The notes beneath the pieces are model-generated. The model saw only the letters and a program-made list of their open reading frames with translations, was not told the origin of the DNA and did no database searches. 64,000 nucleotides of DNA. Origin: Peptococcaceae bacterium BRH_c8a (lineage in GTDB: Bacteria > Bacillota > Desulfotomaculia > Desulfotomaculales > Desulfallaceae). The DNA is taken from NCBI GenBank assembly GCA_000961575.1, contig LADP01000003.1, positions 62,001-126,000 on the forward strand. Direction: 5' to 3'. A program made the translations under genes and the position numbers. Position 1 is the first letter of the stretch, and the number at the start of each line of letters is the position of its first letter. This document shows positions 2,176 to 52,042 of the stretch, piece after piece.

Positions 2176-2179
2176 TTAC

Positions 2180-2273
2180 CCCCTGAAAAAATAAGCATAA
2201 CTGGGGTTTGGTGTTAATCGGAGGGTTACCCGGAGATTAACACCAAACCCCTTACCAAGACTTTTTCAGGAGA
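2180..2273. repeat. Composite palindromic element, solo (core-less) copy 1
   Basis: Outer arms cctgaaaaa/tttttcagg, inner perfect 16-bp arms ggggtttggtgttaat/attaacaccaaacccc; shared with 44358-44586 and about 51801-52042. Confidence 0.85.
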
Positions 2274-2435
2274 CCATACCTAATATTACATCGTTATTAT
2301 GTGAAATAAGCAACGTGCAAAAAAGACCTTTCAAGTGTAAATTCTGTTATCAGGGCTCCCAAGTATTGCCGATTAAGAGATTTGAGTATATTACTAAGAT
2401 AAGTAATAAAACTGCTTACGGAGGAGGTCATTATA

Positions 2436-20199: not shown

Positions 20200-20650
20200 T
20201 TATGTCATTTTGAACGAAGTGAAGAATCTAGATCCTTCGATACGCCCAGGATGACAAAGCCCAAAGTCTATTTTAGGGTAGACCACCATGCCGCTATGCG
20301 GCGCCATCAGTAGGATGAAAAACCACCTTCGCGGCGATCCGGTGATATCCGGAGCGAACGGTGCACCTGGATGCGTTGAATAGTGCAGCAACGCAAAAGC
20401 AAGTAAGAACCTACTTTAAACTTAAAACCTTGGATGCTTTTGCGTTAAAGCTGCACGTTTTAATCATGGCATGCGCCGCAGGCGCTTGCCTCGTCATAGC
20501 CCCGAATTCATAGCTGCTTAGGGCGTAGCCAAACGGGTATGCAGTTTGTGCCGTGCGGTAACAATAACCCGCTCCGATCACAACAATAAGAATTGCAAGA
20601 GAGAGCGGAGCGATATCACCGGAGCGCAGCGTCCACTACAACCCACATTA
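20200..20650. other. Structured intergenic region of unknown function
   Basis: Long bulged hairpin 20383-20401/20435-20456, 12-bp inverted repeat 20338-20349/20612-20623, small GC hairpins at 20290-20302 and ~20471-20491; no credible ORF. Confidence 0.5.
20206..20256. repeat. REP-like repeat copy
   Basis: gtcattttgaacgaagtgaagaatctagatccttcgatacgcccaggatgac. Confidence 0.85.
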
Positions 20651-22691: not shown

Positions 22692-22784
22692 GGTACTCCT
22701 CCTCGGGCAAATTTAGTATTAATACGTAGCATTATGCTTCCCCGCCGGATGGTAAATATGCAAAATCAGTAATCAGAATTCAGA

Positions 22785-22887
22785 GGCAGGGAGACCAGAC
22801 AAGGGGACAGGGACTCAGACAAGGGGACAGGGACTTGTCTGGTCAAAGACCAGACAAGTCCCTGTCCCCTTGTCTGGTCTCCCTGCC
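22785..22887. repeat. Long inverted repeat, GGGGACAG type, with internal tandem duplication
   Basis: 29-bp perfect arms 22816-22844/22848-22876 with aaa loop; outer arms ggcagggagac/gtctccctgcc; extra 20-bp unit in left arm only. Confidence 0.95.
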
Positions 22888-22896
22888 GCTTTGCAA

Positions 22897-33655: not shown

Positions 33656-33737
33656 ACCAATTTCCTCCAAAAGGTTACTAATAAAAAGGTATGATCAACC
33701 TGTAGTTATTATGTAAAAAATTACTAAATACCCATTA

Positions 33738-33805
33738 GACCAGACAAGGGGACAGGGATTTGTCTGTTATGTCTAACAGACAAATCCCTGTCCCCTTGTC
33801 TGGTC
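33738..33805. repeat. Long perfect inverted repeat, GGGGACAG type
   Basis: 32-bp perfect arms gaccagacaaggggacagggatttgtctgtta with 4-nt loop tgtc. Confidence 0.97.
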
Positions 33806-33816
33806 TGCCCTGTCCA

Positions 33817-44175: not shown

Positions 44176-44357
44176 CTCTTCTCGCACTCCTCTCTAAGCT
44201 AAACTGTTTTTAAAAACTCATAAAACTATTTTAGACTAAGAGGTTATTTTGCGCAAGGAAAGTTAGTTATTTTTCCCCTTAAAAACTAAATTTCGTATAG
44301 TCCCCACTGAAAAACGACATAACAAACCCCTCACCACAAGATTGGTCTAACTAGTTT

Positions 44358-44586
44358 CCCCTGAAAAACTAAGCATCACTGGGGTTTGGTGTTAATCGGA
44401 GGGTTACGTAGGAGCTTAAATCAAAGAGTGAGAGAGTCCGAGGAAAAGCGCCGGTGCATGTCTGAGCGCCCGCAGGGCGCGAGTTCTCCGGCGCCCGAGG
44501 ACGAACGAGCTCGTTCAAGCATAACGGCGAGTAGTTACCCGGTATTAACACCAAACCCCTTACCAAGACTTTTTCAGGAGACACTA
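44358..44586. repeat. Composite palindromic element copy 2, core-containing
   Basis: Same palindromic arms as copy 1 but with a 131-bp segment (44408-44538) at the hairpin tip; repeated inverted near 51801-52042. Confidence 0.9.
44408..44538 (+). ncRNA. Putative structured RNA-like core of the composite element
   Basis: Nested pairing gcgccgg[...gcgcccgcagggcgc...]ccggcgc and gaacgagctcgttc; conserved in copy 3 with about a dozen substitutions by eye. Confidence 0.4.
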
Positions 44587-45558
44587 ACTGATTTTTTCTT
44601 CATTAGCCAACGCATTGCTCCACCGGCCACAGCGATCACCCCAGCGCGCGATAACCCGGCCGCCCTCCTGAATTTCCACCACTTCACATATGTTGGGACA
44701 GCCGTCACAGGCAAACCCGCCGCTGCAAAAATCGCTATCGGCAACCTGAAAACCTCTGAAGCCGGTCTTTCTGCGGTTGGTGCTTTCCCGGGCCAGCATA
44801 GCTGCGCCAAGGGCACCCATAACGTTGAAATAAGGAGGCACAATTACTTCAATCTCGAGCGCCTTTTCGAAGGCCCATTTCATCCCGGCGTTGGCCGCCA
44901 CACCGCCCTGGAATACCACCGGAGCCAGGATTTCTTTGCCTTTGCCGACATTATTCATATAATTACGTACCAGCGCTTCGCACAGCCCGGCCAGGATGTC
45001 GGGTATGTTATAGCCCATCTGCTGTTTGTGGATCATGTCACTTTCGGCAAACACGGCGCAACGTCCGGCAATCTGTACCGGCACTTTGGACTGCAGCGCC
45101 TGTGGCCCAAAGTCCTCAATATCCAGGTTCAGCCGTGAGGCCTGCTGATCCAAAAATGATCCCGTGCCTGCGGCACACACTGTGTTCATGGCGAAATCGG
45201 ACACCACCCCGTTACGCAGGATAATAATTTTAGAATCCTGCCCGCCAATCTCCAGGATGGTTTGCACACCAGGCACCACATTGGAGGCAGCTATGGCATG
45301 GGTGGTAATCTCATTTTTGACCACATCAGCACCGGTCATTACGCCGGCCAGATGCCGTCCGCTGCCAGTGGTGCCCACGCCGGCCACCTTGGTGCCGGGC
45401 GGCAGCGCTAAATGCATTAGTTTAAGCCCTTTTTGCACCACTTCAATGGGCTTACCGCTGGTGCGCATGTAAATACTGTGCTTTATGGTGCCGTCTTCAC
45501 CGGTGGCCACCAGGTTAGTGCTCACCGAGCCAACGTCAATACCAAGGTATACATACAT
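44584..45558 (-). CDS. Acyl-CoA dehydratase activase (BadF/BadG/BcrA/BcrD ATPase family)
   Basis: YLGIDVGSVSTNLV, GVGTTGSGRHLAG, EIGGQDSKII, AAGTGSFLDQQASRL. Confidence 0.92.
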   Translation of the reverse strand: MYVYLGIDVGSVSTNLVATGEDGTIKHSIYMRTSGKPIEVVQKGLKLMHLALPPGTKVAGVGTTGSGRHLAGVMTGADVVKNEITTHAIAASNVVPGVQTILEIGGQDSKIIILRNGVVSDFAMNTVCAAGTGSFLDQQASRLNLDIEDFGPQALQSKVPVQIAGRCAVFAESDMIHKQQMGYNIPDILAGLCEALVRNYMNNVGKGKEILAPVVFQGGVAANAGMKWAFEKALEIEVIVPPYFNVMGALGAAMLARESTNRRKTGFRGFQVADSDFCSGGFACDGCPNICEVVEIQEGGRVIARWGDRCGRWSNALANEEKIS

Positions 45559-46674: not shown

Positions 46675-46740
46675 GTACTCATCCTGAGCGCAGCGAAGGA
46701 TCTTATCTTTTAAAGGTTCTTCACTTTGTTCAGAATAACG
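46675..46740. repeat. REP-like repeat (TCATCCTGAGCGCAGCGAAGGATCT...TTCACTTTGTTCAGAATAA)
   Basis: Matches other copies in this window. Confidence 0.8.
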
Positions 46741-47851: not shown

Positions 47852-47918
47852 GTGTCATTCTGAACACAGTGAAGAACCTTAAAGGATAAGATCCTTCGCT
47901 GCGCTCAGGATGACACTT
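47852..47918. repeat. REP-like repeat (inverted orientation)
   Basis: gtcattctgaacacagtgaagaacc...gatccttcgctgcgctcaggatgac. Confidence 0.85.
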
Positions 47919-51800: not shown

Positions 51801-52042
51801 CAGTTAGTGTTTCCTGGGTAAGTCTGGGAGGGGTTTGGTGTTATCTCCAGGATGCAACTCGCCATTACACTTGAACGAGCCCGTTCGCCTTCGGGCGCCG
51901 GAGAACTCGCACCCTGCGGGCGCTCAGACATGCACCGGCGCTTTTCCTCAAGCTCTCTCGCTCTTTGAACTAAGCTCCTACGCATCCTTCCAATAACACC
52001 AAACCCCGCTAAGGCTCGTTTTTAAGAGAGAACTAGCTGATT
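51801..52042. repeat. Composite palindromic element copy 3 (minus orientation relative to copy 2), between spoIIAA and spoIIAB
   Basis: Inner arms 51830-51844/51993-52007 (ggggtttggtgttat / ataacaccaaacccc) around a ~125-bp core homologous to copy 2. Confidence 0.9.

Follow-up and report, generated by a model that had tools for sequence, protein, structure and literature searches.

A structured core carried by MITEs of ISNCY_1-type ISs is a candidate new RNA class

MITEs are usually regarded as transposon remnants, and their interiors as unimportant. In the element described here the interior is instead the conserved part, shared by at least 19 families and found with differing transposon ends. 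BOX, RUP, Correia/NEMIS and ERIC are small, non-autonomous intergenic repeats whose transcripts form strong hairpins (PMC10969869, PMC2229807). Our element is likewise a small, non-autonomous repeat placed between genes, and like BOX it has variable inner modules. To our knowledge, BOX, RUP, Correia/NEMIS and ERIC are limited to one or a few genera; in contrast, the core here extends over at least 19 families and shows covariation in almost every pair, and its conservation exceeds that of its arms.

In IStrons, one class of structured RNA has repeatedly been partnered with several transposon types, which makes the insertions less harmful (PMC4227781). A probable structured RNA is similarly joined to several transposon types here, but it has no group I intron match and no transposase, and the element lies between genes rather than inside them. 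HEARO/omega RNAs (RF02033) are also structured, associated with mobile elements and present in many copies per genome; however, the core matches them neither in sequence nor in structure and shows no link to IscB. The put RNA of phage HK022 suppresses termination in cis, in the sense orientation and without a dedicated adjacent gene (PMC9378689). This RNA and other cis-acting antitermination RNAs can be compared with the core by functional analogy only: there is no sequence link between them, and an antitermination-like function of the core is hypothetical. The outer parts of the element resemble ISNCY-family MITEs (NF033593), with which the copies share outer inverted repeats, 6-bp TANNTA duplications, freedom from genes and presence in multiple copies. 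The ISs of that family differ in lacking the structured core, conserved across the phylum, that our copies carry.

The 64-kb stretch of DNA analysed here (the window, C5:62001-126000) belongs to a source genome (G000) of 4.17 Mb in 48 contigs. A sequence-only reading of the window had named three copies of the repeat, and all three proved real when the sequence was read directly (Table 1). The arms common to copy 1 (2180-2274) and copy 2 are 90-96% identical over 50-52 nt. Copies 2 and 3 form an inverted pair (length 179 nt, 83% complementarity), and their cores differ at 17 positions rather than the 13 or so first counted by eye. Searching the genome with copy 2 and with a covariance model built from 11 source-genome copies (R1) yielded 13 core-bearing copies, 11 of them full-length; one copy (L011) is split by another hairpin and one (L013) has no 5' arm. 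Three copies (L017-L019) have about 84 nt of the core deleted, and a solo hairpin occurs once, as copy 1 of the window (L020), along with some fragments. The elements fall into subfamilies A and B, in which P2 is GGGTTAC/GTAACCC and GGATGC/GCATCC, respectively; this difference is a clean compensatory change.

Table 1. Element copies in the window and the parts of copy 2 (positions count from the first base of the window)
Feature	Position	Strand	Remarks
Copy 1	2176-2276	+	solo hairpin; derived from subfamily A by deletion of the core; no target duplication
Probable remnant of another left end	44294-44314	+	CGTATAGTCCCCACTGAAAAA; just upstream of copy 2
Left target duplication of copy 2	44348-44353		TAACTA; TAACTAGTTTCCCCTGAAAAA at C5:106348-106368
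Copy 2	44354-44584	+	complete MITE with core, 231 bp
Left terminal inverted repeat	44354-44368	+	GTTTCCCCTGAAAAA; ends as in ISNCY_1-family ISs
P1 5' arm	44381-44397	+	GGGGTTTGGTGTTAATC
P2 5' strand	44401-44407	+	GGGTTAC (subfamily B: GGATGC, compensatory change)
Structured core	44408-44538	+	131 bp; phylum-conserved part
Core helix	44448-44494	+	GCGCCGG (44448-44454)/CCGGCGC (44488-44494)
Tip hairpin	44466-44480	+	GCGCCC-GCA-GGGCGC, inside the GCGCCGG/CCGGCGC helix
P2 3' strand	44534-44540	+	GTTACCC (sister copies: GTAACCC)
P1 3' arm	44544-44559	+	ATTAACACCAAACCCC
Right terminal inverted repeat	44570-44584	+	TTTTTCAGGAGACAC
Right target duplication	44585-44590		TAACTG, 5/6 matching
Copy 3	51804-52026	-	subfamily B, inverted; separates the spoIIAA and spoIIAB genes, with its structured strand in the operon sense
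Core of copy 3	51856-51981	-	

Copy 2 is larger than the unit first described, extending outward to the inverted ends, which are flanked by TAACTA and TAACTG. The insert recognised in it measures exactly 131 bp, as had been read, beginning with GTAGGAGC and ending with GTAGTTAC. The GTTAC that had been noted on both sides of this insert is present, at 44403-44407 and as the last five bases of the insert (44534-44538), in copy 2 only. However, it is not a duplication left by insertion of the core but a point change in copy 2, because the other subfamily-A copies read GTAGTAACC.

The copies end in the inverted sequences GTTTCCCCTGAAAAA and GTGTCTCCTGAAAAA, and those of f7, the family of G021, in GATTCCGCTGAAAAA. 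Identical 6-mers, nearly all of them TANNTA, flank 10 of the 22 copies with recognisable ends in f7 and in f1, the family that takes in the source genome. Both sets of ends match those of ISs in three other genomes: G022 (ends GTGTCCCCTGAAAAAATC, duplications TAATTA and TATCTA), G035 (ends GATTCTGCTGAAAAACTC, duplications TATCTA and TAGGTA) and G009, where the IS is decayed (ends GTTTCCCCTGAAAAAC) and its transposase piece also matches Pfam DDE_Tnp_1. The intact transposases of G022 and G035, 465/466 aa in length, are assigned to NCBIfam NF033593 (transpos_ISNCY_1) with 509 and 498 bits, respectively, against a cut-off of 325 bits. Since these ISs of relatives have the same ends and duplications, and their own transposases are ISNCY_1, the copies are MITEs of that family. 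The MITE-like carrier suspected earlier is thereby borne out by inverted ends, target duplications and the lack of a gene: the 231-bp element holds no transposase, and its reading frames are due to chance.

A helper transposase active in the same genome is usual for a MITE, though not required. The source genome yielded only ISNCY_1 fragments scoring under the cut-off and no functional transposase; its copies may therefore be fossils or may have been moved by an IS since lost, and are perhaps immobile now. No IS was found beside the single ends on C2, C19 and C20 of the source genome, and no matching ends were found for the ISNCY-like fragments on its C19 and on C69 of G001. A 3.7-kb interval between end-like sites in G021 (C6:743887-747582) was considered as an autonomous element and rejected, as it holds housekeeping transporter genes.

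Several derivatives have lost the core, with differing junctions that fall at short matches (GAGCT in L017; ACG in L018 and L019). Further examples are L020 in the window, L122 and the 63-bp L150 in G001, and a 68-bp copy in G004. Exact duplications are kept by L017 (TAAATA), L150 (TAAATA) and L154 (68 bp, TAGTTA), and L018 and L019, which occupy two different sites, have a deletion junction in common. Core-less elements have therefore moved, and the whole core is not needed for the mobility of ISNCY-type elements. The solo hairpin had been taken for the empty state of the element. However, it lacks a target duplication and belongs with several internal deletions whose break points differ (L017, L018/L019, L020, L122), so that it is most simply read as a deletion product.

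That the core is structured, as had been proposed, was confirmed by very strong covariation. In 50 diverse copies, two-sided changes were found in 52 of 54 pairs, and the cells with such changes numbered 698; shuffling gave 219, and sliding the partners no more than 130. The core is highly conserved and represents a single family of structured nucleic acid. Its sequence likeness between families is 55-83%; that of the arms is only 30-62%, and despite this 95% of arm cells are paired. The pairing of GCGCCGG with CCGGCGC around GCGCCC-GCA-GGGCGC had been read correctly at the outset. However, the GAACGAGCTCGTTC palindrome proposed with it is not the best-supported arrangement, as across families the pairing of GARC with GYUC places 90.9% of cells in pairs, versus 76.9% for the way the first model paired this segment. 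The refined structure that includes this pairing is 90.3% paired overall, and its helices are separated by 5'-GA/5'-GA loops, with GA on both strands in 32, 23 and 30 of the 50 copies. Some unpaired stretches are conserved too, among them UUCAAAGA, GAGGAnnAGCG and UGUYUGAGC...GCGAGUU, and a short UCAAA/UUUGA pseudoknot candidate is conserved without supporting covariation. Copy 2 folds with -86.3 kcal/mol (z = -4.3 against dinucleotide shuffles) and copy 3 with z = -3.3.

Model R1 matched other families of the order over its full length and at constant length. Within the order, a second model, R2, made from 44 copies, matched 30 of 102 genomes; in a sample of 400 genomes from across the phylum it matched 36. 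Together these represent 19 families, the weakest with an E-value of 0.0006. Carriers identified by an exact-motif scan include Ca. Desulfopertinax cowenii, Desulfallas sp. Bu1-1, Ca. Syntrophopropionicum ammoniitolerans, and Desulfotomaculum and Pelotomaculum MAGs. Rfam 15 gave no match to the window, to the core with lax filters, or to ten diverse loci. Phage, plasmid and viral collections held no match to the core, and no earlier description of the element was found in the open-access literature. We regard the core as a candidate new RNA class, absent from Rfam 15.

In family f15 the core lies between other ends, the left one longer and with a small hairpin of its own (TAGACATCCATGCCGCTAAAGCGGCGCCAGCAGAAGGATGAAAAT), the right one TTTTCAGGATAG. 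The fold of an f15 copy reproduces the consensus exactly (z = -6.8). The two types of end may have a distant common origin, given the likeness of the innermost part of the f15 ends (TGAAAATT) to the ISNCY-type TIR. In G091 the role of ends seems to fall to the P1 arms themselves. At least 19 bacterial families of the phylum thus contain the core, which travels as cargo with two or more kinds of transposon end. Because it is conserved across these families, on different ends, and dispensable for movement, something besides transposition must keep it. The suggestion that arms and core are separable modules agrees with the greater likeness of cores than of arms between families, with the different ends, and with the target duplications of core-less copies; covariation among further copies and a solo copy were both found. 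In L276 (G082:C50), a second MITE of about 330 bp, the f15 ends surround a payload that is unrelated to the core but looks structured as well.

The + strand forms the more stable fold in 104 of 110 copies, so that the element combines strand-specific structure with covariation across diverged sequences, as is expected of a structured RNA family. With DNA parameters the + strand is also favoured (106 of 110), and the strand preference therefore does not decide between RNA and single-stranded DNA. Mismatches in the arms are more often G-T than A-C (54 vs 27). Between genes of the same direction, the + strand is sense in 47 cases and antisense in 18 (p = 0.0004, the sampled copies being partly related), and the ratio is 21:4 where the gaps on both sides are shorter than 100 bp. 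This orientation bias could reflect leading-strand effects. Copy 3 has the sense orientation within the spoIIAA-spoIIAB-sigF sporulation operon of the source genome: the genes on either side of it encode a SpoIIAA-like (STAS) and a SpoIIAB-like (HATPase) protein, and the sigma-F gene comes next. Copy 2 is antisense to both neighbouring genes, and neither a terminator nor a promoter was found in it. A role as terminator was rejected on the grounds that T-runs are no commoner after the + strand (19 vs 21 of 109). No gene family recurs beside the core copies, and no dedicated neighbour gene was found.

The explanation we favour, and think probably right, is that a MITE carries a portable core that is most likely a structured RNA of one strand, acting at the level of the transcript. 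The MITE encloses P1, a pair of long palindromic arms, together with a structured core of about 130 nt, predicted to form a rod of short helices between tandem G-A/A-G loops and conserved A-rich loops. Covariation, strand polarity and operon sense together argue that the core functions as RNA, which we consider quite likely. Transcription of the host operon would read through into a copy, and the core RNA of that copy would act in cis. The effect most likely to be selected may be that an insertion between operon genes is made harmless, for example by avoiding polarity or by protecting the mRNA, although we advance such a cis effect only tentatively. It is possible, but doubtful, that the core is an undescribed RNA class repeatedly taken up by independent transposons, in which the sense core modifies the transcribing polymerase or the mRNA in cis so that insertions between operon genes are non-polar. 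If true, MITEs would spread a 'harmless insertion' module that needs no protein. The covariation of the core suffices to design tests, and some genomes hold tens of copies. One question that becomes testable is whether small transposons earn their place in operons through RNA that they carry.

The core might alternatively be a hairpin of folded single-stranded DNA, comparable to attC sites or IS200-type ends, that aids excision, integration or persistence, with its polarity set by which DNA strand folds. The preference for the + strand under DNA parameters, the frequency of GNA triloops, stable in DNA, as tip loops, and the palindromic arms of every family agree with such a role. However, it is made unlikely by the core-deleted copies with their own target duplications, which mean that ISNCY-type elements move without the core, by the association of the core with at least two kinds of end, and by the sense bias in tight gene pairs, which points to transcripts. 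An integron attC site in particular was rejected: RYYYAAC/GTTRRRY ends are absent, and GTTAC/GTAAC occurs in subfamily A only, subfamily B having GGATGC/GCATCC. Could the core then be an ordinary MITE payload, conserved through few masters and horizontal spread and merely tolerated as a hairpin, as many ERIC, Correia and BOX copies are? The MITE anatomy is clear, there is no partner gene, and copies decay and drop the core. Against this, cores resemble each other between families far more than arms do and compensatory changes occur in nearly every pair; neutral cargo would not hold both pairing and loop sequence over 19 families while its carriers readily lose the core, and we therefore think this origin improbable.

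A self-splicing or self-cleaving RNA that removes the insertion from transcripts, as in IStrons, would account for a conserved structured RNA within a transposon and for the sense bias in operons. Catalysis of this kind is nonetheless very unlikely: no known ribozyme family matches, and the copies sampled are intergenic, none being clearly inserted within a reading frame, where splicing would pay. The sequence-only reading had likened the core to standalone HEARO/omega RNA, and an RNA that serves a nuclease (IscB, IsrB or TnpB) in trans could well be mobile, structured, present in multiple copies and furnished with IS ends. We reject HEARO/omega RNA and give guide-type RNA in general hardly any weight, as RF02033 gave no match at gathering or lax thresholds, nor did any other Rfam model at lax ones. 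IscB (PF14239) is absent from the source genome despite its 13 core copies and shows no association with the core in 111 genomes (7 of 30 core-bearing genomes versus 19 of 81 others), and no gene, nuclease or other, recurs as a neighbour.

Smaller features were seen among the copies and elsewhere in the window. A segment of the inner loop (44457-44466 in copy 2) alternates between ATGTCTGAG and TAGACTTTC, setting L005, L009, L010 and L012 apart from the other copies in both subfamilies; the switch suggests recombination or gene conversion between copies. Near the same inner helix, a hairpin GGGGACATTCCC...GTGTCCCC interrupts the core in two species (L011; L110 at G001:C140:8377-8903), and two copies interrupted in this way stand in tandem in G001. 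That genome also has a head-to-tail array of four core elements with a period of about 229 bp (L111, G001:C45:16919-17781). In the window, a separate hairpin repeat CAGACAAGTCCCTGTCCCCTTGTCTGGTCTCCC occurs at 22782-22890 and 33737-33809, and more dispersed repeats with AAGGATCT and CTGCGCTCAG motifs are found at 218-257, 20203-20242, 46679-46713 and 47879-47913.
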